From assembly GCF_009742725.1 (NCBI RefSeq), contig NZ_WPHG01000002.1:372001-436000 (forward strand): a DNA stretch of 64,000 nt, read 5' to 3'. Both the position numbers and the translations under genes were made by a program. Shown in pieces: positions 1,664-16,001 of this stretch (position 1 is its first letter; each line of letters opens with the position of its first letter). Below the pieces are notes generated by a model. It had not been told where the DNA came from and made no database searches. It saw nothing but the letters and a program-made list of their open reading frames with translations. Origin of the DNA: Nitratireductor arenosus. Its GTDB lineage: Bacteria; Pseudomonadota; Alphaproteobacteria; Rhizobiales; Rhizobiaceae.

Positions 1664-1874
1664 GGTTTTATCCTTGGGAAATCTCGAAATGGTCGGTCGC
1701 GGTGTCTAGTCCGTTTTTGCCTTTAGGGGAAGGGTGAATTGCCCGCCGCGACGCGCGAAGGGCGTCGTCGACGCGCGCTTGCGGTGTGGCGTAACATCAA
1801 ACAACGGCCGGCGCGGCTCGAAACGGACGACGCCCGGCGGGCACGGCTCGGATTTTCGCAAGGTTATTCTTGTA

Positions 1875-1886
1875 TCTTATATAAGA
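1875..1886. promoter_or_regulatory. GntR operator candidate, left arm
   Basis: TCTTATATAAGA is a perfect 12-bp palindrome ending 52 bp before the kinase start codon. The 17 bases from 1875 (palindrome plus CTTGA) recur exactly in front of suyA at 8832. The AT-rich island stands out in very GC-rich DNA. The GntR gene between the two operons is the obvious candidate binder, which would make this the switch for the sugar-cleaving arm. Confidence 0.7.
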
Positions 1887-1938
1887 CTTGATAGTCTGGT
1901 CAGTGTAACCTCCGCGTGCCTTCAGAGAACCGGTCGCC

Positions 1939-2835
1939 ATGACAAAAATCCTGCTTGCCGGCGTCGCCGTGATCGACATCGTGATGTCGGTCGACGAGAT
2001 GCCGCGGAAGGCCGAAAAATACCGCGCCCGCGATGCGGCGATCGTCGGCGGCGGCTGCGCGGCCAACGCGGCGGTGGCCGTGGCGCGGCTGGGCGGCGAG
2101 GCGTTGCTGTGCGCGCGTGTCGGGCGCGATCCGATCGGCGCCATGATCGTTGCGGAGCTGGAGGCGGAAGGGGTCGATTGCACGCGGGTGCGCCGGCTGG
2201 ACAAGGGGCGTTCGTCGTTTTCCTCGGTGTTTGTCGATGCTGGCGGCGAGCGTCAGATCGTCAATTTCCGCGATATGGAGCTCAGCTTCGATGCCGGGTG
2301 GCTCGAGGCGGACATGCCGCAGAATGTCGACGCGATCCTGGCCGACACGCGCTGGCCGCAAGGCGCGGCTGTCGCGATGCGAGCGGCGCGGCGCTTGGGC
2401 GTGCCCGGCATCCTTGATGCCGAGGCGCCGGTGCGCGAGGCCGAAGAGGCGCTCGCGCATGCCTCCCACATCGCCTTTTCGGCCCAGGGCCTGCGCGATT
2501 TCGCCGGCATGGACGATCTCGACCGCGCTCTGGCGACAGCGCGTGCGGAGACCGGCGCCTGGGTCTGCTACACCAATGGCGCGAAAGGGGTTTTCTTTCT
2601 CGACGGCGCGTCGGGCGGGCGCGTGCCTGCCTTTGCCGTCGACATCGTCGACACGCTCGGCGCGGGCGATGTCTGGCACGGCGCCTTCGCGCTGGCGCTG
2701 GGCGAGGGCCAGGCGGAAGCCGAGGCGATCCGCTTCGCCAATGCGGTGGCGGCGATCAAATGCACCCGCTTTGGCGGCCGCGAAGGAACGCCGGACCGGA
2801 TCGAGGCGGACAGGTTTTTGAGGGCAGCGGCATGA
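1939..2835 (+). CDS. yihV: PfkB-family kinase, probable 6-deoxy-6-sulfofructose kinase (YihV-like)
   Basis: Likely phosphorylates C1 of sulfofructose with ATP to give sulfofructose-1-phosphate. It is a 298-residue ribokinase-fold protein, the same length as E. coli YihV as I recall it, and aligns to it without gaps over the first 140 residues. Shared stretches are GKY/EKY near 27, VGGG at 36-39, GER..IN at 103-109, and ADxRW at 135-139. Lys27, Asn109 and Arg138, which I recall as lying around the sulfonate in the YihV structure, are all kept. The PfkB signature DTLGAGDVWHGA holds the catalytic Asp near 242. It is the first gene after the GntR-type palindrome and overlaps the aldolase gene by 4 bp (ATGA). 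A different hexulose kinase is possible, but the sulfolactate genes nearby favour a sulfosugar. Confidence 0.8.
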   Translation: MTKILLAGVAVIDIVMSVDEMPRKAEKYRARDAAIVGGGCAANAAVAVARLGGEALLCARVGRDPIGAMIVAELEAEGVDCTRVRRLDKGRSSFSSVFVDAGGERQIVNFRDMELSFDAGWLEADMPQNVDAILADTRWPQGAAVAMRAARRLGVPGILDAEAPVREAEEALAHASHIAFSAQGLRDFAGMDDLDRALATARAETGAWVCYTNGAKGVFFLDGASGGRVPAFAVDIVDTLGAGDVWHGAFALALGEGQAEAEAIRFANAVAAIKCTRFGGREGTPDRIEADRFLRAAA

Positions 2836-3892: not shown

Positions 3893-4447
3893 TCAGTTGA
3901 AGACGATGCGGCCGAGCACGACCAGGCCGGTCTCGTCGGGCGCGACGATCAGCGCCTCGCCCTCGCGCGTCGCGCGTCCGGTGAGCGCCTTGATGACGGT
4001 CAGATCGGCGACCATGATCATGTTGCCGGAGCCGGAAAAGCCATGCACCGCCTCGACGGTTGCGGCCAGAGCCTCGGCGGTGGCCGTCTCGTCCTCGCCG
4101 GGCGGGTCGAGCGGCGCGAAGGCTTCCACCGCGTCGGCGCCGAAGGCCAGACGCGCCGTCTCCAGGGCCCGGCAGAGCCGGCTCGACAGGACGCGTTCCA
4201 CCGGCGCGCCGCGCGCGGCGATCAGCGAGCCGAGACGGCGCGCCTGGTTCCGGCCACGTTCGGACAGGTTGCGCTGGGTGTTGCATTTTTCGATATCGAA
4301 ATTGGGCGGTTCGATCGTGCCGAGCGCATAGGCATGGCGCATCAGCACGACCTGGCCGCCGCCGCGCAGCAGCGCCCATCCGGCTTCGGTCGCCTGGACC
4401 GGCAGGGCGAAAAAAATCAGTGCGAGGGTGGTGAATATCCGGATCAT
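3893..4447 (-). CDS. exported histidine phosphatase (SixA/phosphoglycerate-mutase superfamily)
   Basis: A 184-residue protein on the opposite strand to its neighbours. It starts at the ATG at 4447 with a clear signal peptide (hydrophobic stretch to an ALPVQA cleavage site near residue 19), so it should be periplasmic. The catalytic motif VVLMRHA follows near residue 40, the SxRGxxQA-like motif (LSERGRNQARRLG) near 70-80, and a downstream GNMIMVADL takes the place of the second active-site histidine segment, where the usual GH pair is not obvious. Substrate unknown. It lies convergent to the aldolase (14 bp gap) and divergent from the isomerase (45 bp gap), so it interrupts the sugar operon. 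It could dephosphorylate a periplasmic ester or simply be an inserted neighbour. Confidence 0.75.
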   Translation of the reverse strand: MIRIFTTLALIFFALPVQATEAGWALLRGGGQVVLMRHAYALGTIEPPNFDIEKCNTQRNLSERGRNQARRLGSLIAARGAPVERVLSSRLCRALETARLAFGADAVEAFAPLDPPGEDETATAEALAATVEAVHGFSGSGNMIMVADLTVIKALTGRATREGEALIVAPDETGLVVLGRIVFN

Positions 4448-4492: not shown

Positions 4493-5908
4493 ATGGGAAG
4501 CAAAGCCAAAGCGCCCGGCAACGGCAAGATCGCGATCCTGCCGCTCGGGCGGCCGACTTTCGACCTCCCCTTTGCCGAGGAGAGACTGGCGGCGATGCTG
4601 GCCGCGCTCGAGCGCGCCGGCGCCGAACTGACGGGCCCCCGCTCGCTGCTGCTCGACCTTGATGCCGCGCGCGCCGCGATCGCCGACCTGTCGGCGAGCG
4701 TCCCCGACCAGGTGCTTGTGCTGCAGGTCACTTTCACCGATGCCGGCATGGTGGCCGAGGCGGCGCGGGCCTTTTCCGGCCCGTTGTCGATCTGGGCGGT
4801 GCCGGAGCCGCGTCTCGGCGGACGGTTGAGGCTGAACGCGTTTTGCGGGCTCAACCTCGCCGCGCACGCGCTCGGCCTGGCTGAACGGGCGTTCGGCTAT
4901 CTCTACGCCGACCCGCAGGCGGCGGAGGTCGATCGCGATCTGGCTGCGCTGCTTGCGGGCAAGCGCATCGCGCGGCCGGAGCCGACGCGCCCGGCGACAG
5001 GCGGTGATCCGCGCGGGCGGCAGGCCGCCCTCAGCCTGCGCGGTACGCGTATCGGTCGCATCGGCAAGCATCCCGACGGCTTCGATACCTGCGCCTACGA
5101 CGAGGCGAAGATCGCCGCGCTGGCGGGCGTGCATGTCGAAGAACTCGAACTCGACACCCTGTTCCACCGCGCAGGCGCGGCGGAGAACACCGCCGTCGAA
5201 ACGGTCGCGACGCATGCGCAAACGACGCTTGGCGGACTGGACCGCATCGATCAGGGCCAGCTCGACCGGTCCTACCGTCTCAAGGTCGCGCTCGACGGGT
5301 TGCGCGTCGACAATCGCTACGATGCGTTTGCGATCCGCTGCTGGCCGGAAAGCTTTACCGAGTATGGCGGGGCGGTGTGCGGGCCGGTGGCGATGCTGGG
5401 CGAGGCGCGCGTTCCGTGCGCCTGCGAGGCCGACGTCTATGGCGCTTTGTCGAGCCTGCTTCTGCAGCGTGTCGCCGGCACGCCGGCCTTTTTGACCGAC
5501 CTTGTCGATCTCGACGCGGCCGACAATAGCGGTGTTGTGTGGCATTGCGGCCAGGCGCCGCTGTCGATGGCCGATCCGGGTTTCGCGCCGCAGGCGACCA
5601 TCCACACCAACCGCAGGATGCCGCTGCTTTACCAGTTCCCGCTGAGGCCCGGCCGGGTCACCTTTTTGCGCATCAGCCAGGCGCGGGGGCGAACGGTGGC
5701 GGTGATCGGTGGCGGCGAGATGCTCAAGCGGCCGATGGCTTTTACCGGCACGTCGGGCGTGGTGCGCTTCGACACCCCGGCGGCAAAACTGCTCGATCGC
5801 GTCATGGGCGCGGCGCTCGAGCATCACCTCGCGCTCGCTTATGGAGACCATCGCGATGCTCTCGGAGCCGCAGCCGAAACCCTCGGCATCCCGATCCTCG
5901 ACCTCTGA
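4493..5908 (+). CDS. L-fucose isomerase-fold protein, candidate sulfoquinovose isomerase
   Basis: A 471-residue protein of the fucose/arabinose isomerase-like superfamily (COG2407 type). The C-terminal half has the usual metal-site pattern: CEADVYG with Glu312 and Asp314, FLTDLVD with Asp337, and a conserved His351 in VVWHCGQAP. In a sulfoglycolytic pathway it would interconvert SQ and sulfofructose, a job done in E. coli by the unrelated YihS. I recall a COG2407 protein proposed for this step in the Arthrobacter sulfo-EMP variant; that should be verified. It follows kinase and aldolase genes after an intervening opposite-strand gene, and ends 1 bp before the Gfo/Idh/MocA gene, so those two are surely cotranscribed. 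Fold assignment is strong, substrate is inferred. Confidence 0.75.
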   Translation: MGSKAKAPGNGKIAILPLGRPTFDLPFAEERLAAMLAALERAGAELTGPRSLLLDLDAARAAIADLSASVPDQVLVLQVTFTDAGMVAEAARAFSGPLSIWAVPEPRLGGRLRLNAFCGLNLAAHALGLAERAFGYLYADPQAAEVDRDLAALLAGKRIARPEPTRPATGGDPRGRQAALSLRGTRIGRIGKHPDGFDTCAYDEAKIAALAGVHVEELELDTLFHRAGAAENTAVETVATHAQTTLGGLDRIDQGQLDRSYRLKVALDGLRVDNRYDAFAIRCWPESFTEYGGAVCGPVAMLGEARVPCACEADVYGALSSLLLQRVAGTPAFLTDLVDLDAADNSGVVWHCGQAPLSMADPGFAPQATIHTNRRMPLLYQFPLRPGRVTFLRISQARGRTVAVIGGGEMLKRPMAFTGTSGVVRFDTPAAKLLDRVMGAALEHHLALAYGDHRDALGAAAETLGIPILDL

Positions 5909-5909
5909 C

Positions 5910-7001
5910 ATGCGCGCCGGCACGATACGCTACGCCGTGATCGGCACGGGCATGATGGGCCGCGAGCACATGCGCAATATCGCCCTGCTCGAGGGGGCCG
6001 AAATCACCGCGCTCGCCGATCCGAATGCCGACAGCCTGGCGCAGGCGGTGGCGGGCGGCCGCGCCGGACTGGCGCAATACCGGGATCACCGCGCGCTGCT
6101 GTCGGCCGGCGGCTTCGACTGCGTGGTGATCGCCAGTCCCAACGACACCCATGCCGCGGTGCTCGCCGACGTGCTGGCGGCGCAAAAGCCGGTGCTGGTG
6201 GAAAAGCCGCTTTGCGCGACGCTCGAGGATTGCCGCGCGATGCTGCGGCTTGCCGAAAAGGCGGTCGCTCCGGCCTGGGTGGCGATGGAATATCGCTACA
6301 TGCCGCCGGTCGAGCGGCTGATCGACAAATTGCGGGCCGGCGAGGCGGGACGGCTCAAAATGATCGCGATTCGCGAGCATCGCTTTCCGTTTTTGCAGAA
6401 AATCGACGATTGGAACCGGTTTTCCGTGCGTACCGGCGGCACTTTGGTCGAAAAATGCTGTCATTTCTTCGATCTTATGCGGTTTATGGCCGGGGCGGAG
6501 GCCAGGCGCGTCTACGCCTCGGGCGCCATGGACGTCAATTTTGTCGGCGAGACCTATGGCGGCCGGCCGGCGGACATTCTCGACAACGCCTTCGTCGTCG
6601 TCGATTTCGATAACGGCGTGCGCGCCATGCTCGATCTGTGCATGTTTGCCGAAGGGTCCTATTGGCAGGAACAGATCGCCGCGACCGGGGATCTGGCCTC
6701 GATCGAGGCGTTCGTGCCCGGACCGGCCCGATTTTCGCCCGACGGGCGCGTGCGGCTGTCGGAACTGGTCGTTTCGCCACGCGCCACCAAACAGCCCGTG
6801 CGCGAGGAAATCCATGTCGATCCCGTCATCCTGGCGGCGGGCGATCATCACGGCTCGACCTTTTTCCAGCATCAGAAATTTCTCGACATGGTGCGCCACG
6901 GCGGAACGCCCGAAGTCACGCTCGAGGACGGCATGCGCGCGGTGATGATCGGCCAGGCGGCGGAGGAAAGCGCCAGGACGGGCTCGGCGATCGCGCTCTG
7001 A
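5910..7001 (+). CDS. Gfo/Idh/MocA family protein (sulfosugar oxidoreductase or NAD-dependent glycosidase)
   Basis: A 363-residue two-domain protein. The N-terminal Rossmann fold has GTGMMG at residues 12-17 and the family EKP motif at 98-100 (VLVEKPLCA), where the lysine is a usual catalytic residue. The C-terminal beta-sheet domain contains KCCHFFDLMRFM in the place of the family GGG...D/H motif. The ATG at 5910 follows the isomerase stop by 1 bp, indicating tight coupling. Possible roles are SQ (or another hexose sulfonate) dehydrogenase, or an NAD-dependent sulfoquinovosidase of the kind recently described in this fold (GH188, as I recall). No conventional GH31 sulfoquinovosidase is in the window, which makes the second role attractive. 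Family certain, function open. Confidence 0.8.
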   Translation: MRAGTIRYAVIGTGMMGREHMRNIALLEGAEITALADPNADSLAQAVAGGRAGLAQYRDHRALLSAGGFDCVVIASPNDTHAAVLADVLAAQKPVLVEKPLCATLEDCRAMLRLAEKAVAPAWVAMEYRYMPPVERLIDKLRAGEAGRLKMIAIREHRFPFLQKIDDWNRFSVRTGGTLVEKCCHFFDLMRFMAGAEARRVYASGAMDVNFVGETYGGRPADILDNAFVVVDFDNGVRAMLDLCMFAEGSYWQEQIAATGDLASIEAFVPGPARFSPDGRVRLSELVVSPRATKQPVREEIHVDPVILAAGDHHGSTFFQHQKFLDMVRHGGTPEVTLEDGMRAVMIGQAAEESARTGSAIAL

Positions 7002-7060: not shown

Positions 7061-8011
7061 ATGTCCGCCGAAGTCGAAGCCGTGTTGTTCATTTTCGGTC
7101 TGATCGCGCTTGGCTACCTCGCCGGCGTGAGCGGCTATCTGAAGGCGGAGGCCGGCGATGCGCTGGCCGAATTCGCGGTCTCGGTCGCGGTGCCGCTGTT
7201 GTTGTTCAAGACCATGCAAAGCGCCGATTTCCACGGCGCGGCGCCCTGGTCGTTGTGGATTGCCTATTTCGCCTCGGTGGCGATCGCCTGGGCGCTCGGC
7301 CAGTTCGTCACCACGCGGGTCTTCGGTCGCGATGCGCGCGCCGGGGTGGTCGGCGGCGTGTCGGCCTCATTTTCCAACACAGTTCTGCTCGGCATTCCGC
7401 TGGTGCTCGGCGTGTTCGGCCAGGCCGGATTCGAGATCCTGGCGCTGATCGTGTCGGTGCATCTGGTGGTGATGATGGCGGCCTCGATCGTCGTTTTCGC
7501 TATTCTCGACGGCAGCCGCGACGGCGCGCCGCGCCCGTCCGCCATGGTTTCCGATTTTTTCGGCAAGCTTTTGCGCAATCCGATCATCATCGGCATTCTG
7601 GCAGGTCTCGCCTTCCGCTTTACCGGTTGGCAACTGCCCGGCCTCGGCCTGCGTTTCGTCGACGCGCTGGCCGGCATTGCCGGGCCGCTGGCGCTGTTTT
7701 CGATCGGCCTCGGGCTGCGTCGCTACGGCATTGCCGGCAATCTGCGCGCCGGCGTCGCCCTTGCCGGGTTCAAGCTCGTCTTGATGCCGACGCTGACCCT
7801 GGTCCTGGCGCTGGCGCTCGGCCTGCCGCCGCTGGCCGCCCAGGTCGCCGTCATCACCGCGTCGCTGCCGACCGGCGTCAACGCCTATCTGATCGCCGTC
7901 CAGTTCGGAACCGGTCAGGCGATCTCGACAAACGCGATGATGATCGCCACGAGCTGCGCGGTGGTCACGATTTCGCTGTGGCTGTTGGTGCTGCAGGCCG
8001 TGTTCGGCTGA
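7061..8011 (+). CDS. AEC-family membrane transporter
   Basis: A 316-residue integral membrane protein with about ten hydrophobic segments in two similar halves, the pattern of auxin efflux carrier (AEC) family permeases such as malonate and malate transporters. It begins MSAEVEAVLFIFGLIALGYL; an internal loop near 145-170 is charged, and the second half has the conserved FSIGLGL and SLPTGVNAYLIA segments. It is the last plus-strand gene of the left arm, 59 bp after the Gfo/Idh/MocA gene, and converges on the GntR gene. It may move a pathway intermediate such as sulfolactate, or another organic anion, across the inner membrane. It is not of the TauE/SafE type usually linked to sulfite export. 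Confidence 0.85.
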   Translation: MSAEVEAVLFIFGLIALGYLAGVSGYLKAEAGDALAEFAVSVAVPLLLFKTMQSADFHGAAPWSLWIAYFASVAIAWALGQFVTTRVFGRDARAGVVGGVSASFSNTVLLGIPLVLGVFGQAGFEILALIVSVHLVVMMAASIVVFAILDGSRDGAPRPSAMVSDFFGKLLRNPIIIGILAGLAFRFTGWQLPGLGLRFVDALAGIAGPLALFSIGLGLRRYGIAGNLRAGVALAGFKLVLMPTLTLVLALALGLPPLAAQVAVITASLPTGVNAYLIAVQFGTGQAISTNAMMIATSCAVVTISLWLLVLQAVFG

Positions 8012-8023
8012 GGCGGGGCGGGA

Positions 8024-8758
8024 TCAGCGCAGTTCGGCGGCGTAATGGGCCATGTCGGTCAGGCAGCGCGAGACGCGCAGCTCGACCGGCTTGTTTTCCA
8101 GGTCGAAGGCCACGCGCGTGATCTCCAGCAGCGGCGTGTGCGTTGCGCAGCCGAGATGGGCCGCGTCCGCCTCTGACGCCGCGACCGCCTTCAACCGCTC
8201 GCTGGCCCTTGCGATGGTGACACCCCAACGCTGCGAATAGAGGCCGTAAACGTTGTTGGGCAGGTCGGCGACGTCGCCAAAGCCCGCAAACCGCGCCGCG
8301 GGCAGGCGGATCGTTTCCACCAGGAGCGGCTTGTCGCGGATCGAGCGCAGCCGCTCGGTCAGCCACACGGCCTCGCCGGCCTGCAGGTCCAGCGCCCGGG
8401 CGTCGCGGCGGGTCGCGCGAGCCCGGTCGCGCTTGAGGATGCGCGATTGCGGAAACGAGGTCTCGCCGTCGTCCGGCACCATCCGGAAGAACTGGAACAG
8501 GATGCGGCTTTCCTCCGGGCTGGCGACGAAGGTGCCGCGACCCTGGCGCCGGATCAAAAGGTTCTCCGCCGTCATCGCGTCGAGCGCCTTGCGGATCGTG
8601 CCCTGGCTGACCCCGACCTGGCGCGCCAGCTCCATCTCGGAGGGGATCAACTGGCCCGGCTGCCACTCGCCGTCGATCAGGCGCCGGACGAGTTGGTCCT
8701 TCACCTGCATGTAGAGCGGCTTGTAGGCGAATGTGGTGGCTGGCGCGTTCTCGTTCAT
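8024..8758 (-). CDS. GntR-family regulator, HutC/FarR subfamily
   Basis: A 244-residue transcription factor with an N-terminal winged helix (residues 15-80: LYMQVKDQLV...IPSEMELARQVGVSQGTIRKALDAM...RRQGRGTF) and a C-terminal UTRA ligand-binding domain, which puts it in the HutC group; these usually sense small metabolites and repress. It sits between the two arms of the sulfosugar locus, convergent with the permease and divergent from suyA. The 14-bp palindrome in the shared promoter (72 bp from its start) and a copy in front of the kinase gene are its probable operators, so it should control itself as well. SQ, sulfofructose or a phosphorylated intermediate are likely effectors; this is inference. 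Confidence 0.9.
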   Translation of the reverse strand: MNENAPATTFAYKPLYMQVKDQLVRRLIDGEWQPGQLIPSEMELARQVGVSQGTIRKALDAMTAENLLIRRQGRGTFVASPEESRILFQFFRMVPDDGETSFPQSRILKRDRARATRRDARALDLQAGEAVWLTERLRSIRDKPLLVETIRLPAARFAGFGDVADLPNNVYGLYSQRWGVTIARASERLKAVAASEADAAHLGCATHTPLLEITRVAFDLENKPVELRVSRCLTDMAHYAAELR

Positions 8759-8830
8759 GACCGAATCCCCGTATCGGACCCCGATTTTCTAGCCGGTCGG
8801 AATTGACTTTGCCAGAATTTTATATCTTAT

Positions 8831-8844
8831 GTCTTATATAAGAC
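8831..8844. promoter_or_regulatory. GntR operator candidate, right arm
   Basis: GTCTTATATAAGAC is a perfect 14-bp palindrome in the 119 bp between the divergent gntR and suyA genes, ending 33 bp before suyA. Its core and the following bases match the site at 1875 over 17 positions. An additional half-like TATCTTAT lies just upstream at 8823-8830. The position suits repression of both genes. Confidence 0.75.
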
Positions 8845-8877
8845 TTGAGCATTCCAAATGGGGGCTGACGGGATTTC

Positions 8878-9165
8878 ATGACCATTCCACACCTGCTCGT
8901 GCATGATCGGAAGGACAATGTCGGCGTTGTCGTGGTCGAGGGGCTGACGGCGGGAACCCGCATGCTGGCCGCCGTCACCGAGGACGATTCCAGCTTCGAG
9001 ATCGAAGCCGGAAACGACGTTCCGATCGGTCACAAAGTGGCGCTTCGCGACATCGCCGACGGCGACACCGCGATCAAATATGGCGAGGATATCGGGCGCT
9101 TCGTAGCCGATGTGGCGCGCGGCGAACACGTGCACGTCCACAATCTGAAGACCAAGCGCTGGTAG
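8878..9165 (+). CDS. suyA: sulfolactate sulfo-lyase small subunit SuyA
   Basis: A 95-residue SAF-domain protein equivalent to the N-terminal part of altronate dehydratase UxaA, ending in the typical [14 protein letters not shown]. As an independent small gene immediately before a large-subunit gene, it matches SuyA, the alpha subunit of (2R)-3-sulfolactate sulfo-lyase, which eliminates sulfite from sulfolactate to give pyruvate. Split UxaA-type dehydratases for altronate or galactarate have the same layout, so the identification leans on the neighbours: suyB with the sulfo-lyase-like sequence, then slcC and comC. It is the first gene of the right arm, 33 bp after the GntR palindrome. Confidence 0.85.
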
Positions 9166-9224: not shown

Positions 9225-10406
9225 ATGGCCGCGAACTATTCCAATCTGACATTCAAGGGCTACCGGCGCGACAATGGCCGGGTGGGCGTCAGGAACCACG
9301 TCGTCATCCTGCCGGTGGACGACATCTCCAATGCCGCCTGCGAGGCGGTGGCCAACAATATCAAGGGCACGCTGGCGCTGCCGCACGCCTATGGCAGGCT
9401 GCAGTTCGGCGCCGACCTCGACCTGCATTTCCGCACCATGATCGGCACCGGCGCCAACCCGAACGTGGCCGCCTGCATCGTGATCGGCATCGAGCCGGGC
9501 TGGACCAAAAAGATCGTCGACGGAATCGCTGAAACCGGCAAGCCGGTGGCCGGGTTCTCGATCGAGCAGAACGGCGACCTGAAGACGATCATGGACGCCT
9601 CGCGCAAGGCGAAGGAATTCGTCCATTACGCCACCGAGCTGCAGCGCGAGGATTGCGCGGTTGGCGAGCTGTGGGTGTCCACCAAATGCGGCGAGAGCGA
9701 CACGACAACCGGGCTCGGCTCGTGCCCGACGGTCGGCAACATGTACGACAAGCTGCTGCCGGAAGGCATTTACGGCTGTTTCGGCGAGACCTCCGAGATC
9801 ACGGGCGCCGAGCATATCTGCAAGCAGCGCGCCGCCAGCCCGGAGGTCGGCGAGCGCTGGTACGCGATGTGGAAGGCCTATCAGGACGACGTCATTTTCG
9901 CGCATCAGACCGACGATCTGTCGGAGAGCCAGCCCACCAAGGGCAATATCGAGGGCGGGCTGACGACGATCGAGGAAAAGGCGCTCGGCAATCTGGAAAA
10001 GATCGGCCGCACGTCGAAATTCATCGACATATTGGAGCCGGCCGAGGCGCCCCGATCGGGCAAGGGGCTCTATTTCATGGACAGTTCGTCGGCGGCAGCC
10101 GAATGCGTGACGCTGATGGCGGCCGGCGGTTATGTCGTGCACACGTTTCCGACCGGCCAGGGCAATGTGATCGGCAACCCGATCGTGCCGGTGATCAAGA
10201 TCACCGCCAATCCGCGCACGGTGCGCACGATGGGCGAACATGTCGACCTCGACGTGTCCGGCATCTTGCGCCGGGAGATGACGATCGACGATGCCGGTGA
10301 CGCGCTGATCGACATGATCGTGCGCACGGCGAGCGGCCGCAGCACCGCCGCCGAGGCGCTTGGCCATCGCGAATTCGTCATGACCAAGCTCTACCGGAGC
10401 GCCTGA
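9225..10406 (+). CDS. suyB: sulfolactate sulfo-lyase large subunit SuyB
   Basis: A 393-residue UxaA C-terminal-domain protein, the catalytic subunit that cleaves the C-S bond of (2R)-sulfolactate, releasing sulfite and pyruvate in the cytoplasm. Hallmarks: [21 protein letters not shown] at the N-terminus, [59 protein letters not shown] with cysteines suited to an iron site, and [15 protein letters not shown]. These stretches agree with SuyB sequences as I recall them. It follows suyA by 59 bp. The gap to slcC (170 bp) includes possible hairpins (10479-10508 and 10531-10548), so part of the operon may have its own control. Altronate dehydratase is the fallback reading. Confidence 0.85.
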
Positions 10407-10576: not shown

Positions 10577-11506
10577 ATGCCTGAAATCGTGATCGCCGAA
10601 TTCATGGACGAGACCGCCGTGGAGCACATGCGTCAGCGCCACGACACGCTCTACGACGCCACGCTCGTCGACCGGCCGGATGCCCTGGCCGCCGCCCTTG
10701 CCGAAGCGCGCGTGCTCGTGGTGCGCAACCGCACCCAGGTGCGCGGCGCGCTGCTGGCGGCGGCGCCGCGCCTGGAGATGGTCGGCCGTCTCGGTGTCGG
10801 CCTCGACAATATCGACCTGGCCGCCTGCGCGGCGCGCGCCATCGCCGTGGTTCCGGCGACCGGCGCCAACGACCTGTCGGTGGCCGAATATGTGATCACG
10901 ACGGCGATGACGCTGTTGCGCGGCGCCTATGCGGCAAGCGGCGCGGTGGCCGCCGGCGCCTGGCCGCGCCAGACGCTGATCGGCCGCGAATTGTCGGGCC
11001 GGACGATCGGGCTGCTCGGCTACGGCGCGATCGCGCGCGAGGTCGCGGCGCGGGCGCGCGCGCTCGGCATGGCGGTCGTTGCGCACGACCCGCTGCTCGA
11101 CGCGGCCGATCCGGCCTGGGGAACGACGCGGCCGATGACGCTCGACGCGCTGCTTGTGGCGGCCGATGTCGTCAGCCTGCACGTGCCTTTGACGGAGGCC
11201 ACCCGACACATGATCGGCGCGGCGGAACTCGCGCGCATGAAGGACGATGCGATCCTCGTCAACGCGGCGCGCGGTGGGGTGATCGACGAGACGGCCCTTG
11301 CCGCCGCATTGCGTGCGGGAAGGATCGGCGGGGCCGCGCTCGACGTTTTCGAGGCCGAGCCGCTGACGGCCGAGGCCGGGAAAAAATTCGTCGGCCTGCC
11401 CAATCTGATCCTGACGCCGCATATTGCCGGGGTGACGGTGGAATCGAATATCCGCGTCTCGGCGGTGATCGCCGACGCGGTGCTGGCGCATCTGGAGGCG
11501 CGGTGA
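10577..11506 (+). CDS. slcC: (S)-sulfolactate dehydrogenase SlcC (D-2-hydroxyacid dehydrogenase family)
   Basis: Oxidises (S)-sulfolactate to 3-sulfopyruvate with NAD. The ATG at 10577 gives 309 residues, the length I recall for SlcC of Chromohalobacter; a TTG two codons upstream is an alternative start. Features of the D-3-phosphoglycerate dehydrogenase family are complete: NAD-binding GLLGYGAIA near 146-153, and the catalytic triad Arg232 (NAARGG), Glu261 (DVFEAEP) and His282 (TPHIAG). The stop codon overlaps the comC ATG by one base. Placement between suyB and comC reproduces the known sulfolactate-inversion set. Another 2-hydroxyacid dehydrogenase function cannot be excluded from sequence alone. 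Confidence 0.8.
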   Translation: MPEIVIAEFMDETAVEHMRQRHDTLYDATLVDRPDALAAALAEARVLVVRNRTQVRGALLAAAPRLEMVGRLGVGLDNIDLAACAARAIAVVPATGANDLSVAEYVITTAMTLLRGAYAASGAVAAGAWPRQTLIGRELSGRTIGLLGYGAIAREVAARARALGMAVVAHDPLLDAADPAWGTTRPMTLDALLVAADVVSLHVPLTEATRHMIGAAELARMKDDAILVNAARGGVIDETALAAALRAGRIGGAALDVFEAEPLTAEAGKKFVGLPNLILTPHIAGVTVESNIRVSAVIADAVLAHLEAR

Positions 11507-12513
11507 TGGGCGAACGTCTTTTGACGGCCGACGACGCGCATCGCCTGTGCGTGGCGGCGCTGACGGCCTCGCGCACGACGGCCAACAATGCCGAGGCGGT
11601 GGCGCGCGCGCTGGTCGGCGCCGAACTGGCCGGGCAGGGCGGTCACGGCCTGAGCCGGGTGCCGGCCTATGCCGCCCAGGCGCGGGCGGGCAAGGTCGAC
11701 GGCTTCGCCACCGCGACTGCGACCCTGACCCGGCCGGGCGCCGTCCAGATCGACGCCGCGCACGGTTTTGCCTATCCCGCGCTCGAACTCGCCGTCGCCC
11801 GGCTTGCCGAGATCGCGCCGGCCCAGGGCGTGGCGCTTGCCGGCATCAGGCGCTCGCACCATGCCGGGGTGGCCGGGCTGACGGTGGAGGCATTGGCCGA
11901 ACGGGGGCTGGTGGCGCTGCTTTTTGCCAACGCGCCGGCGGCGATGGCGCCCTGGGGCGGACGGCGGCCGCTCTACGGCACCGATCCGATCGCCTTTGCC
12001 TGTCCGGTGGAGGGCGGCGCGCCGGTGGTGGTCGACGTGTCGCTGTCGAAAGTCGCCCGCGGCAGGATCATGGCCGCACGGCAGAAGGGCGAACCGATTG
12101 CCGAGGGCTGGGCGCTCGACAGCGCCGGCAACCCGACCACCGACGCCGAGGCCGCGCTTGCCGGCACGATGGTGCCGCTCGGCGATGCCAAGGGCACCGC
12201 GCTGGCGCTGATGGTGGAATTGCTGGCGGCCGGGCTGACCGGCGCCAACTATGCTTACGAACAGACCTCGTTCTTCGATGCCGAGGGCGCGCCGCCGGGA
12301 ACCGGCCAGCTTCTGATTGCGATTGATCCAGCCGCCTTCGGTGCTGTCAGCGCGGTTGCCCGTTTTGCCGAAATGTCGCAAATTGTCGCCGAAACGGATG
12401 GAGCGCGAGTGCCGGGGCAAAGACGGCACGAAATCCGACACCGTTTGCGGCGCGACGGCATTCCGCTCGATTCGGCGCTTATTCAGGATATTGAAACCAT
12501 TGCCGCCGGGTAG
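11506..12513 (+). CDS. comC: (R)-sulfolactate dehydrogenase ComC (Ldh2/malate dehydrogenase type)
   Basis: A 335-residue member of the Ldh2/MdlH family, which includes ComC. Here it would reduce 3-sulfopyruvate to (R)-sulfolactate, the only enantiomer SuyAB accepts, completing inversion together with SlcC. Motifs seen: LVGAELAGQGGHGLSRVP with the substrate-binding His/Arg segment near 40-52, RRSHHAGVAGLTVE near 113-125 with the catalytic histidine, the nucleotide-binding NAPAAMAPWGG and YGTDPIAFACP, and a GDAKGTALALMVELL helix near 225. The ATG at 11506 shares its A with the slcC stop. The C-terminus is short and arginine-rich compared with the rest, but still in frame. Confidence 0.8.
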   Translation: MGERLLTADDAHRLCVAALTASRTTANNAEAVARALVGAELAGQGGHGLSRVPAYAAQARAGKVDGFATATATLTRPGAVQIDAAHGFAYPALELAVARLAEIAPAQGVALAGIRRSHHAGVAGLTVEALAERGLVALLFANAPAAMAPWGGRRPLYGTDPIAFACPVEGGAPVVVDVSLSKVARGRIMAARQKGEPIAEGWALDSAGNPTTDAEAALAGTMVPLGDAKGTALALMVELLAAGLTGANYAYEQTSFFDAEGAPPGTGQLLIAIDPAAFGAVSAVARFAEMSQIVAETDGARVPGQRRHEIRHRLRRDGIPLDSALIQDIETIAAG

Positions 12514-12532: not shown

Positions 12533-13990
12533 ATGTTGCAGAAGACCAGCCACTATATGCGTCAGGCCAACCTGATCGGCGGCGAATGGGTCGATGCCGA
12601 TTCCGGCGCGACGCTGGACGTGACCAACCCGGCCAACGGGCAAACGATCGGCACGGTGCCGAAATCGGGCACGGCGGAGACCCGGCGCGCCATCGAGGCG
12701 GCCGAAAAGGCTTTCCAGTCGTGGAAGAAGACGTCGGCCAACGAACGGTCCAAATTGCTGCGCCGGCTGCACGACCTCATCCTGGAGAACCAGGACCCGC
12801 TGGCCGAGCTCCTGACGATGGAGCAGGGCAAGTCGCTTGCCGAGGCCAAGGGCGAGGTGGCGATCTCGGCCGCCTATATTCTGTGGTTCGCGGAGGAGGG
12901 GCGGCGCACCTATGGCGACGTGGTGCCGAGCCCGTGGGCGGACCGTCGCCTGCTGGTCACCAAGGAGCCGGTGGGCGTGGTCGCGGCGATCACGCCGTGG
13001 AACTTTCCCTCCTCGATGCTGGCCCGCAAGATCGGTCCGGCGCTTGCCGCCGGCTGCACGGCGGTGGTCAAGCCCGCCTCGCAGACGCCCTATTCGGGGC
13101 TTGCCTGGGGCGCGCTGTGCGAGGAGGCGGGTTTCCCGAAGGGCGTCATCAATATCGTCACCGGCTCGGCGAGCGAGATCGGCGACGAATTGTGCTCCAA
13201 TCCGCTGGTGCGCAAGATCACCTTCACCGGCTCGACCGAGATCGGCAAGATGCTGATCGAGAAATCGGCCTCGACGGTGAAGAAGGTGTCGATGGAACTC
13301 GGCGGCAATGCGCCGTTCGTGGTTTTCGACGATGCCGATATCGACCGCGCCGTCGAAGGCGCGATGGTGGCCAAATACCGCAATTCCGGCCAGACCTGCG
13401 TGTGCACCAACCGGTTTTTCGTCCAGGCCGGCGTCTATGACACCTTCGTCGAGAAGCTCGCCGCCGCCTCGCGCAAGCTGAAGGTCGGCGCCGGGCTCGA
13501 CGACGGCACCCAGCAGGGGCCGCTGATCGACGTGAAGGCGGTCGAGAAGGTCGAGGAACTGATCGCCGACGCGACCGCGAAGGGCGGCACGGTCGTCACC
13601 GGCGGCAAGCGCCACGACCTCGGCGGCTCGTTCTTCGAGCCGACGGTGATTTCCGGCGCCACCACCGCCATGCGGGTGATGAAGGAGGAGATTTTCGGTC
13701 CGGTCGCGCCGGTGTTCCGTTTCGAGACCGAGGACGAGGCGGTCGCCATGGCCAACGACACCGAATTCGGCCTGGCCTGCTATTTCTATTCCGGCGATCT
13801 CGGCCGCGCCTTCCGGGTCACCGAGGCGCTGAAATATGGCATGGTCGGTGTCAATGAGGGCCTGATCACCACGGTCGAGGTGCCGTTCGGCGGGGTCAAG
13901 GAGTCCGGTCTCGGGCGCGAGGGCGGCCATCAGGGCATCGACGATTATCTCGACACCAAATATGTCTGCATCGGCGGCCTCGGCCTCTGA
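12533..13990 (+). CDS. NAD(P)-dependent aldehyde dehydrogenase, probable sulfolactaldehyde dehydrogenase
   Basis: A 485-residue aldehyde dehydrogenase most like succinate-semialdehyde dehydrogenases (GabD), the group from which known 3-sulfolactaldehyde dehydrogenases come. The ATG at 12533 is preceded by a good ribosome site (GGAGG, 7 bp away). Catalytic residues are present: Asn157 in ITPWNFP, Glu255 in MELGG, Cys289 in NSGQTCVC. The C-terminal YGMVGVNEGLITT/PFGGVKESGLGREGG is SSADH-like. In this locus it would oxidise sulfolactaldehyde from the aldolase to sulfolactate for SlcC/ComC/SuyAB. Start lies 19 bp after comC, within the same operon. A GABA-shunt role is the alternative. Confidence 0.8.
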   Translation: MLQKTSHYMRQANLIGGEWVDADSGATLDVTNPANGQTIGTVPKSGTAETRRAIEAAEKAFQSWKKTSANERSKLLRRLHDLILENQDPLAELLTMEQGKSLAEAKGEVAISAAYILWFAEEGRRTYGDVVPSPWADRRLLVTKEPVGVVAAITPWNFPSSMLARKIGPALAAGCTAVVKPASQTPYSGLAWGALCEEAGFPKGVINIVTGSASEIGDELCSNPLVRKITFTGSTEIGKMLIEKSASTVKKVSMELGGNAPFVVFDDADIDRAVEGAMVAKYRNSGQTCVCTNRFFVQAGVYDTFVEKLAAASRKLKVGAGLDDGTQQGPLIDVKAVEKVEELIADATAKGGTVVTGGKRHDLGGSFFEPTVISGATTAMRVMKEEIFGPVAPVFRFETEDEAVAMANDTEFGLACYFYSGDLGRAFRVTEALKYGMVGVNEGLITTVEVPFGGVKESGLGREGGHQGIDDYLDTKYVCIGGLGL

Positions 13991-14062: not shown

Positions 14063-15079
14063 ATGGCAGGCCCCGAATTGTTCGGCACGACCGAGGCGGG
14101 CGAGACGGTGCACCGCCTCGCCATTTCCGGCGGCGGGCTGCGGGCCAACATCCTGACCTGGGGCGCCGTCGTCCAGGATCTGCGTTTGTCGGGCCATGAC
14201 GCGCCGCTGGTGCTGGGATTTGAGCGTTTTGCCGATTATCCGGCGCATTCGCCCTATTTCGGGGCGATTGCCGGTCGTTACGCCAACCGGATCCGCGACG
14301 GACATTTCACCATCGAGGGCCAGCGCTTCGAGACCGACCGCAATTTTCTCGGCAAGCACACGCTGCATGGCGGCTCGACGGGGACCGGCAAGCGCGTCTG
14401 GCGGCTCGAGGCACACGGCGAGGATTTCGTCGCCCTGTCGCTGAAGGATGCCGACGGCACGATGGGGTTTCCGGGCGAGCTCGACATGTCGTGCACCTAT
14501 CGGCTGAAGCTTCCGGGCACGCTGTCGGTGGAACTGAGCGCGACCGCGGAGGCGCCGACGCTGTGCAATCTCGCCCATCACTCCTATTTCAACCTCGACG
14601 ACGGCGGCACCGGCGACATTCTGGACCATCGGGCGATGATCGCGGCCCTGGCCTATCTGCCGGTCGACGCGGAGATGATCCCGACCGGCGTGGTGGAGCC
14701 GGTGGAAGGCACGGCGTTCGACTTTCTGCTGCCGCGGCCGATCCGTCATGCCGACGAACACAACGCTCAACTCGCCTACGACCACAATTTCTGCCTGGCG
14801 GCCGCGCGCGGCCCCCTGCGCCAGGCGGCCTGGGTGCAGAGCGCGCATTCGGGCGTGGAGATGGAGGTGTGGACCACCGAGCCCGGCATCCAGTTTTACG
14901 CCGGCCACAAGCTCGCGCCGCAGGCCGACGGGCTCGGCGGGCGCCGCTACCGTGCGCATGCCGGTTTCTGCCTCGAACCGCAGGTCTGGCCGGATGCGCC
15001 GAACCGGCCCTATTTTCCGCAGGCCGTTCTGTGGCCCGGCGACCGCTACCGCCAGGTGACGGAATACCGTTTCAGATAG
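14063..15079 (+). CDS. aldose 1-epimerase, candidate sulfoquinovose mutarotase
   Basis: A 338-residue GalM-type mutarotase. Recognisable segments are GRYANRIRDG near 70-80, HGGSTGTGKRVW with the first active-site histidine near 100, LAHHSYFNLDD with the histidine pair near 173, and AYDHNFCL. Mutarotases of this family accompany sulfoglycolytic operons (YihR, SquM) because glycosidases release one SQ anomer and the next enzyme uses another. It is the last gene of the right arm. Its 3' end overlaps the convergent sugar kinase gene by 8 bp. General hexose mutarotation is possible, but operon membership supports SQ. Confidence 0.8.
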   Translation: MAGPELFGTTEAGETVHRLAISGGGLRANILTWGAVVQDLRLSGHDAPLVLGFERFADYPAHSPYFGAIAGRYANRIRDGHFTIEGQRFETDRNFLGKHTLHGGSTGTGKRVWRLEAHGEDFVALSLKDADGTMGFPGELDMSCTYRLKLPGTLSVELSATAEAPTLCNLAHHSYFNLDDGGTGDILDHRAMIAALAYLPVDAEMIPTGVVEPVEGTAFDFLLPRPIRHADEHNAQLAYDHNFCLAAARGPLRQAAWVQSAHSGVEMEVWTTEPGIQFYAGHKLAPQADGLGGRRYRAHAGFCLEPQVWPDAPNRPYFPQAVLWPGDRYRQVTEYRFR

Positions 15080-16001
15080 GCTCGAACGCCGCCCGCAGGA
15101 TCGAAAACGGCGCCAGCGCGCCGCGCACCTGGACCACGGCCGCTGCGACCTGGTGGGCGCGTCGCGCCGCCTCGTGCGGCGGATGGCCGGAAAGGCGCGC
15201 GGCCAGATAGCCGCCATTGAAGGAATCGCCGGCGCCGGTGGTGTCGACTGGGTTTTCCACCGCGACAGCGGCAATCGGTTCGGCACGGCCGTTGCAGACA
15301 ACCAGCGCGGGATCGGCGCCGTCCTTGACGACGATTTCGCCGATGCCGGCCTTGGCCAGCCGGTCGGCGGTCGCCTGCGGCTTTGGGTCGGCGAAAAGCG
15401 CGTTTTCGTCGGGAAAGGTCGGCAGGGCGATGTCGGTGAGCGCCAGCGCCTCGCCGATCGCGGCCTTGGCGGCGGCGGCCGACGGCCACAGGCGCGGGCG
15501 GTAATTGGGATCGAAGGCGACCGTCGCGCCGGCGGCGCGCGCGGTGGCGAGCGCGTCGAGCAGATGTTGCCGGGCGGGCACGTCGAGAATTGCCAAAGTG
15601 ATTCCGGAAAAATAGATAAGCGTCCGGTTTTGAAGGCTTTTCGCCAATGGGTCTGCGTCGTCGGCGAGCCGGCGGGCGGCGGCGTCGGAGCGCCAGTAGG
15701 TAAAGGAGCGTTCGGCGCCATCGAGCGTGATGGCGTAAAGGCCGGGGCGGGCGCCGGCGATTTTCGGACTTGCCGCGACGCCGATGCCGTTTTCCTGCAT
15801 GAAGCCGATCTGCGCGGCCGAGAACGGGTCGTCGCCGAAGGCCGACACGTAGTCGCATGCGTGCGCGGTGTCGGTCAGCGCGCGGAGCGCCCACAGCGTG
15901 TTGAACGTGTCGCCGGCATGGCCCATGCGCCACAATCCGTCCTCGGCGCCGGCAAGCTCCAGCATGCATTCCCCGACCGCCGCGATATGTCCTGCCCGCA
16001 T
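15072..16001 (-). CDS. PfkB-family sugar kinase, 2-keto-3-deoxygluconate kinase type
   Basis: A 309-residue ribokinase-fold protein close to KdgK: GECMLEL near the start, GHAGDTFNTLWALRAL, a mid-region YFSGITLAIL, FDPNYRPRLW near 165-175, and the signature PVDTTGAGDSFNGGYLA with catalytic Asp near 258. KdgK phosphorylates KDG in the Entner-Doudoroff branch of uronate breakdown. It faces the epimerase gene and overlaps it by 8 bp, so the two transcripts are complementary at their ends. There is no KDPG aldolase here. It may be unrelated to the sulfosugar locus, or act on a deoxy-sulfo-keto acid; I have no evidence for the second. Confidence 0.8.
   Translation of the reverse strand: MRAGHIAAVGECMLELAGAEDGLWRMGHAGDTFNTLWALRALTDTAHACDYVSAFGDDPFSAAQIGFMQENGIGVAASPKIAGARPGLYAITLDGAERSFTYWRSDAAARRLADDADPLAKSLQNRTLIYFSGITLAILDVPARQHLLDALATARAAGATVAFDPNYRPRLWPSAAAAKAAIGEALALTDIALPTFPDENALFADPKPQATADRLAKAGIGEIVVKDGADPALVVCNGRAEPIAAVAVENPVDTTGAGDSFNGGYLAARLSGHPPHEAARRAHQVAAAVVQVRGALAPFSILRAAFEPI

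Follow-up and report, generated by a model that had tools for sequence, protein, structure and literature searches.

Based on its family membership, residues, predicted fold and gene order, we assign with high confidence the protein encoded at 5910-7001 (+), SqgA, to GH188, a family of NAD-dependent sulfoquinovosidases. The gene lies in a 64,000-nucleotide stretch of the Nitratireductor arenosus genome (contig C8, 372001-436000), which is called the window here; the activity of SqgA and its substrate in the organism we infer from sequence and a structural model. An earlier note on this DNA had suggested a possible NAD-dependent sulfoquinovosidase, and scores, residues, tree, predicted fold and neighbourhood all point to the same placement. 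A GH188 member is expected here and is not novel as such; the family is widespread, Alphaproteobacteria included (PMC10755693, the founding paper of GH188). The assignment would give a MocA-fold gene, which in general family searches is merely an oxidoreductase, the role of gateway enzyme for sulfoquinovose (SQ), one of the most abundant organosulfur compounds.

The 363 amino acid reading frame is intact and SqgA carries both Gfo/Idh/MocA domains (PF01408, 90 bits; PF02894, 89 bits), the fold that the earlier note had given for GH188. In a phmmer search against all PDB chains the top matches were 8zn9 (6e-114), 8qc3 (ArSqgA, 2e-111) and 8qc2 (FlSqgA, 9e-111); 8zn9 bears no GH188 label and its entry title names marine sulfoquinovosidases. 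These solved enzymes score 374-384 bits; the next MocA protein reaches 83. They are followed by the MocA dehydrogenase 3ezy (2e-22) and the inositol dehydrogenase 4hkt (4e-19), and glucose-fructose oxidoreductases reach at most 42 bits. A search of its own genome with SqgA returned SqgA itself at 814 bits and the next best protein at 82 bits. Among the best 80 of 587 confirmed relatives, the closest named one is a Nitratireductor alexandrii protein with 96% identity. None of the NCBIfam matches of SqgA names GH188. The best of these models is myo-inositol 2-dehydrogenase at 132 bits, far under its cut-off of 355 bits, and the IolG identity was rejected on this score.

For ArSqgA, the residues K107, Y136, Glu163, R166, L170, K172, E189, H193 and H321 were reported (PMC10755693), where Glu163 falls on E164 once the other residues fix the numbering. 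SqgA has the corresponding catalytic residues K99, Y128, E156, E181, H185 and H313 (ArSqgA K107, Y136, E163/164, E189, H193 and H321) and the sulfonate triad R158, L162 and K164 (ArSqgA R166, L170 and K172). All nine are kept in 107/107 homologue rows, a count from which two incomplete rows (L023, L077) and copies of SqgA itself were dropped, and in which some rows are one gene from two collections. Other MocA proteins, represented by 13 rows (11 from paralogues in the own genome, one of these a duplicate, and two from the PDB), consistently keep only K107 (13/13) and H193 (12/13). A quick tree of 97 of the 124 aligned rows, with the duplicate MocA row removed and very long outgroup branches, splits 85 GH188-type rows from 12 other MocA rows by a branch with SH-aLRT 97. 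SqgA groups on the GH188 side with the solved sulfoquinovosidases, which form two branches there while SqgA forms a third. The non-GH188 rows of this tree are inositol-type and own-genome MocA proteins and contain no glucose-fructose oxidoreductase. The earlier note had named a position among inositol or glucose-fructose oxidoreductases as evidence against its proposal; such a position was not found, by the tree for the inositol type and by the PDB scores for the glucose-fructose type, and both identities were set aside on the PDB scores, the NCBIfam cut-off and the tree.

The SqgA model structure (pLDDT 90) fits 8QC2, 8QC6 and 8ZN9 with TM 0.94-0.96, compared with ~0.80 for other MocA proteins, and both Pfam and the model indicate an NAD-binding Rossmann domain followed by a C-terminal alpha/beta domain. 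ArSqgA (8QC3/8QC6), FlSqgA (8QC2/8QC8) and 8ZN9 share ~50% full-length identity with SqgA, together with its predicted fold, the reported catalytic and sulfonate residues and the kind of gene neighbourhood; unlike them, SqgA lies on a separate tree branch and is known here from sequence. The mechanism that we propose for it is the oxidoreductive one of ArSqgA and FlSqgA (PMC10755693). NAD+ would be bound in the Rossmann domain, C3 of an SQ glycoside such as SQ-glycerol would be transiently oxidised, the aglycone eliminated, water added and C3 reduced back, so that the reaction would release free SQ and consume no NAD+ overall. The sulfonate would be held by R158, K164 and the backbone of L162. 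The same chemistry could serve the glycoside of another sulfosugar, e.g. a sulfofucoside, given that sulfofucose, a rare sulfosugar, is catabolised by a Paracoccus (PMC12421959). As all the ArSqgA residues that contact SQ are kept in SqgA, and as the sulfofucose breakdown described in PMC12421959 is an ED-type route with different enzymes, we consider this very improbable.

SqgA as a sulfoquinovosidase fits the genes around it, which are listed below.

1939..2835 (+): YihV-like sulfofructose kinase (PfkB); 42% identity to E. coli YihV over 294 aa; PF00294
2832..3878 (+): class I sulfofructose-1-phosphate aldolase candidate, YihT/LacD family; PRK12858 330 bits, over cut-off
4493..5908 (+): SqvD/SftI-like sulfoquinovose isomerase, fucose/arabinose isomerase superfamily; NCBIfam SftI, PF02952
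5910..7001 (+): sqgA, predicted GH188 NAD-dependent sulfoquinovosidase; 363 aa; phmmer, residues, tree, fold
7061..8011 (+): AEC-type membrane carrier; PF03547; 59 bp downstream of sqgA
8024..8758 (-): GntR regulator with UTRA domain (HutC type), probable cluster regulator; domain search
8878..9165 (+): SuyA-like small subunit, SAF domain; domain search
9225..10406 (+): SuyB-like sulfolactate sulfo-lyase large subunit, galactarate dehydratase family; PF04295, PF20629
10571..11506 (+): SlcC-like 2-hydroxyacid (sulfolactate) dehydrogenase; PF02826, neighbourhood
11503..12513 (+): ComC-like sulfolactate dehydrogenase (Ldh_2); best NCBIfam model L-sulfolactate dehydrogenase
12533..13990 (+): GabD-like sulfolactaldehyde dehydrogenase candidate, start codon chosen; TIGR01780 706 bits, over cut-off
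14063..15079 (+): aldose 1-epimerase, candidate SQ mutarotase; PF01263; 26% identity to YihR over 152 aa only

The gene order places a kinase-aldolase-isomerase-sqgA operon beside a sulfolactate-to-pyruvate module. The isomerase gene ends with TGA at 5906-5908 and the ATG of sqgA is at 5910, which agrees with the 1-bp gap given in the earlier note. Its statement that GH188 genes lie in similar clusters also fits, as this is a sulfo-EMP-type neighbourhood like those published for the family. By homology, the genes for SQ isomerase, sulfofructose (SF) kinase, sulfofructose-1-phosphate (SFP) aldolase and sulfolactaldehyde (SLA) oxidation or reduction are together in the window. The single calls differ in closeness. 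For the aldolase a start codon at 2832 was chosen in a longer frame from 2760; its best model, PRK12858, is named tagatose 1,6-diphosphate aldolase, and its identity to E. coli YihT is 28%. The isomerase reaches 261 bits (E 1e-77) on NCBIfam SftI, under the cut-off of 700 bits. A phmmer search of the PDB gave no match for it at 0.001; in a Foldseek comparison its model resembles arabinose and fucose isomerases, with E down to 2e-22 and a TM of only 0.48-0.58. The ComC-like protein scores 186 bits on the L-sulfolactate dehydrogenase model (cut-off 500), TIGR01780 is a succinate-semialdehyde dehydrogenase subfamily model, and the SuyB-like call was made from Pfam domains only. The mutarotase that the earlier note had seen is indeed present, although the gene by itself does not imply a glycosidase step as had been argued, since YihR-type mutarotases may also supply open-chain SQ to SqvD-type isomerases (PMC9594981).

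In the proposed pathway SQ would be isomerised, phosphorylated and then split by aldol cleavage, SLA would be oxidised to sulfolactate, the sulfolactate would be inverted by SlcC and ComC, and C-S cleavage by SuyAB would yield pyruvate and sulfite. Judged from its sequences, the gene set could thus take SQ-glycerol via sulfofructose-1-phosphate and sulfolactate to pyruvate and sulfite, and a single genome could carry out this conversion by itself. The AEC carrier could serve to take up the substrate or to release sulfite or a sulfonate. The mix of a YihV-like kinase, a class I aldolase and a FucI-type isomerase is shared with the hybrid sulfo-EMP/EMP2 pathway; unlike those hybrid sets, the window mix adjoins SlcC, ComC and SuyAB candidates and could end in pyruvate and sulfite. 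There are published examples of hybrid sulfo-EMP/EMP2 sets and of extended pathways that finish with SuyAB (PMC9594981, PMC12890257, PMC10599462). Another close likeness is the Y160 cluster described in PMC11465081, where GH188 also stands beside a fucose isomerase, sulfo-lyase subunits, a PGDH-like dehydrogenase, an SFP aldolase, an SF kinase and an SLA dehydrogenase. That cluster differs from the window in being actinobacterial and in having ABC transporter genes inside, and in the Y160 and Y158 clusters Tyr replaces Leu170, where SqgA has the usual Leu (L162) (PMC11465081).

Further genes were observed in and around this row. Strong matches to the AEC carrier (at least 284 bits) occur only in the loci L002-L004, L010, L023, L032 and L033, with L002-L031 being short stretches. 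A SixA-like histidine-phosphatase gene lies on the opposite strand between the aldolase and the isomerase (3893-4379, -) and is also matched in L032-L037 and L107. The mutarotase gene adjoins the end of a second PfkB-type kinase gene (15072-16001, -), which is on the opposite strand.

The neighbourhoods of sqgA in relatives were looked at in named loci from the best 80 of the 587 confirmed relatives, a sample biased to close kin. With at least 300 bp upstream, 43 of 77 such loci have the isomerase directly upstream on the same strand; it is elsewhere in 2/77, and in 32/77 no isomerase reaches 150 bits. Where at least 5 kb is available on each side (51 loci of the same best 80), the isomerase is found in 31, an alkanesulfonate-monooxygenase-like (luciferase-like) gene in 8 and an IlvD/EDD dehydratase in 4, while 8/51 have none of these three pathway markers. 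In 24 of these 51 the kinase, aldolase and isomerase genes are all present, and the eight that bear SuyB all have kinase, aldolase, isomerase, SlcC, ComC and SuyA as well. The representative monooxygenase is nearest to alkanesulfonate monooxygenase, under the cut-off, and the representative dehydratase is over the L-arabinonate dehydratase cut-off; our guess, guided by PMC10755693, is that these two kinds of loci are sulfo-SMO and sulfo-ED. Three marker sets near sqgA are what is expected of an enzyme acting before the pathways diverge, and, being common to different SQ pathways, SqgA should act on SQ or the SQ glycoside that they share.

This bears on the option that SqgA is no glycosidase at all and is an SQ dehydrogenase making sulfogluconolactone, the entry to sulfo-ED. 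Most MocA proteins are dehydrogenases, as is the best NCBIfam model of SqgA. Yet the one characterised SQ dehydrogenase taken into account belongs to the SDR family (PMC12133307), the isomerase, kinase and aldolase candidates of the operon need SQ itself, and sqgA accompanies three different pathway gene sets. In addition, six loci labelled as having EDD only also have an SDR gene, within 41 bp in five and 1.3 kb away in one, and its nearness argues against SqgA as the SQ dehydrogenase; the best model for the SDR representative is D-xylose 1-dehydrogenase, under the cut-off. Taken together, we regard a dehydrogenase as the least probable reading of SqgA, slightly below even that of a glycosidase for another sulfosugar.

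The sulfoquinovosidase reading of SqgA can also be compared with the distribution of the GH31 sulfoquinovosidase YihQ. No YihQ-type gene was found in the Nitratireductor arenosus genome. Among 297 genomes of the family, 73 have GH188 (E 1e-30), 16 have a YihQ-type gene (E 1e-130) and none has both, a complementary distribution with p = 0.015, kinship ignored. The YihQ model passed its cut-off in 0/14 control genomes, E. coli included, and the E. coli YihQ protein itself was therefore taken as the control in place of that cut-off.

A shared operator probably places the window operons and a third operon under one regulator, a proposal drawn from sequence and comparative genomics. The two sites in the window are as follows.

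1867..1891 (no strand): operator heading the kinase-aldolase-isomerase-sqgA operon; 20-mer on the minus strand, 0 mismatches
8824..8850 (no strand): operator between gntR and suyA, SdhR-like palindrome; 20-mer, 0 mismatches

The sequence TCTTATATAAGACTTGA occurs exactly at 1875-1891 and at 8832-8848 and in none of 100 shuffles. The 12-mer core is found at three places in the 4.8-Mb genome, the third being on contig C1. The 20-mer TCTTATATAAGAYAYAAGAW, a pattern built from the very sites it then counted, finds these three places and no others at up to 3 mismatches, the sites having 0, 0 and 1, and its reversed control finds none. The window regulator (8024-8758) has GntR and UTRA domains, which we take as the mark of the HutC type, and its mode of action is assumed here to be repression. 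The HutC-subfamily regulator SdhR has the motif TCTTATGTCTTATATAAGACATAAGA (PMC4494728, a GntR motif review). This 26-bp motif matches 8825-8850 with 3 mismatches (0 in 100 shuffles) and the other two sites with 5. The sites thus share with the SdhR operator the core TCTTATATAAGA and the flanking half-repeat, differ from it by 3 to 5 mismatches in 26 bp, and here adjoin SQ-linked genes.

Among the best 80 of 587 relatives, the 12-mer (at most 1 mismatch) is present in 11/11 loci with a close relative of the window GntR (at least 200 bits) and in 2/69 loci lacking one. Within the genus, three sites were found in each of the three genomes with GH188 and none in the one that lacks it. At the family level the exact 12-mer is linked to GH188, yet it is not confined to GH188 genomes: of the 49/297 genomes that have it, 29 have GH188 and 20 do not (p = 1e-8, kinship ignored), so that it is absent in 44/73 GH188 genomes and present in 20/224 others. 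The reversed control pattern occurs in 21/297 genomes, and lone exact matches in other genomes can therefore be due to chance. Loci L033-L037 and L107, which come from Mesorhizobium, Hoeflea, Aquibium and another Nitratireductor, also carry the operator core (at most 1 mismatch). In L035, from Hoeflea, the core by its coordinates also stands just upstream of TRAP transporter genes, which suggests that different importers have been placed under one regulator.

The third site, on contig C1, lies ~90 bp upstream of genes for a solute-binding protein, two permeases, an ATPase and a GH31 protein. An FCD-type GntR gene adjoins it in the window genome (G000) and in six relatives, and it is one of the sites with 5 mismatches to the 26-bp SdhR motif; the operator might accordingly belong to that adjacent regulator, with the ABC-GH31 operon outside the SQ regulon. 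We find this unlikely, though less so than the alternatives for SqgA above: the motif core matches that of the HutC-subfamily SdhR (PMC4494728), it tracks the HutC-type regulator (the 11/11 against 2/69 loci among the best 80 of 587), a single 20-bp pattern covers all three sites (0, 0 and 1 mismatch), and both the site and the GH31 are missing from the genome of the genus that lacks GH188. Our preferred reading is that the two window operons and the ABC transporter-GH31 operon are probably all controlled by the HutC-type GntR, acting at the shared operator. The operator thereby offers a testable regulon which points to a transporter and a GH31. In the literature searched we found nothing that ties such a regulon, transporter or companion GH31 to sulfoglycolysis, and no paper with both Nitratireductor and sulfoquinovose; we do not claim that they are unpublished.

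With such a GH31 in the regulon, sqgA could be redundant. A PF01055 search found one GH31 gene in the whole genome, that of C1, and none in the window. The statement of the earlier note that no GH31 sulfoquinovosidase is seen therefore stands within the window and for the YihQ type, and does not extend to the genome, which has this one non-YihQ and seemingly co-regulated GH31. Its best PDB matches are alpha-glucosidases (229 and 220 bits), with YihQ at most at 99 bits. On the YihQ model PRK10426 it scores 146 bits, compared with a cut-off of 553 and with 1247 for E. coli YihQ. Although it belongs to the same GH31 family as the sulfoquinovosidase YihQ, the two share 24% identity. At the YihQ positions R301, W304 and Y508, which we take to be the sulfonate residues in number and role, orthologues of this GH31 have R, F and F in 19/19, where YihQ-type enzymes have R, W and Y in 5/5; the nucleophile column D405 was misaligned for the GH31 and was left out of the comparison. 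A YihQ-type identity was rejected on the PRK10426 score and on the change of W304 and Y508 to F. Solved structures are only distantly related to the solute-binding protein of the operon (best E 4e-11).

Close orthologues of the GH31 (over 900 bits, a border set after a gap from 962 to 629 bits was noticed) are found in 19/297 family genomes from 9 genera. All 19 have a sulfoquinovosidase (SQase), 14 of the GH188 and 5 of the YihQ type, against 70/278 of the others (Fisher p = 2.6e-11, kinship ignored), while for distant GH31 genes (39-44% identity) the figure is 4/10 genomes (p = 0.49). In G131 the solute-binding protein, permease, permease, ATPase, GH31 and sqgA genes follow in this order on one strand, with GH31 directly upstream of sqgA. 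The five GH188-negative genomes carry a YihQ-like gene (45-48% identity) on the same strand as the GH31, 1.7-2.7 kb further downstream. Of the 17 genomes having the solute-binding gene there, 14 have the operator (at most 1 mismatch) in front of it; the operator is absent at the head of the GH31 operon in G131, G020 and G295, and in G082 and G276 the operon is without the solute-binding gene.

Could the C1 GH31 then be the main sulfoquinovosidase, with SqgA secondary? The operator that heads its operon, the single gene row with sqgA in G131, the SQase in 19/19 genomes with an orthologue and the Arg matching R301 in 19/19 speak for it. We nevertheless judge it improbable, at 24% identity to YihQ and 146 against 1247 bits on the YihQ model, with F in place of W304 and Y508 in 19/19 when YihQ-type enzymes keep R, W and Y in 5/5. 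The YihQ-type SQase gene 1.7-2.7 kb away in five genomes argues that the GH31 is no replacement for one. The C1 GH31 accompanies SQases and does not replace them. In our reading it most likely acts on a glycoside imported by the ABC transporter, before or beside SqgA. Whether the ABC importer and this non-YihQ GH31 form a second arm of Rhizobiales sulfolipid-sugar catabolism under the same GntR is, in our judgment, evenly balanced. In such an arm the GH31 would be a new SQ-glycoside hydrolase with a different sulfonate pocket, or a trimmer of a further sugar, e.g. on galactolipid headgroups or a glycosylated SQ compound, and this trimming would let SqgA act.

Some other contexts of GH188 were observed among the best 80 of 587 relatives. 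Genes for a MauG-like di-haem protein (~588 aa) and a TRAP transporter stand beside GH188 in 26 loci (L034, L035, L039-L042, L044, L045, L048, L052, L056, L065-L069, L071, L089, L090, L093, L095, L096, L104-L106 and L108), a context that spans isomerase-type, monooxygenase-type and Pelagibacteraceae loci. In the Pelagibacteraceae loci L093, L104, L105 and L106 the TRAP and MauG-like genes are upstream of the GH188 gene, and no isomerase, monooxygenase or dehydratase marker was found in these four, of which L104 and L105 offer only 1.6 kb downstream. In L106, the one locus named by Pfam, PhyH and 2OG-Fe(II) oxygenase genes lie downstream of GH188; these Pelagibacteraceae loci are possibly of an SQ dioxygenase type. 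GH188 genes were also found in Desulfofustis and Desulfobulbaceae assemblies (L062, L072), and in L072 isomerase- and kinase-like genes are near the GH188 gene.
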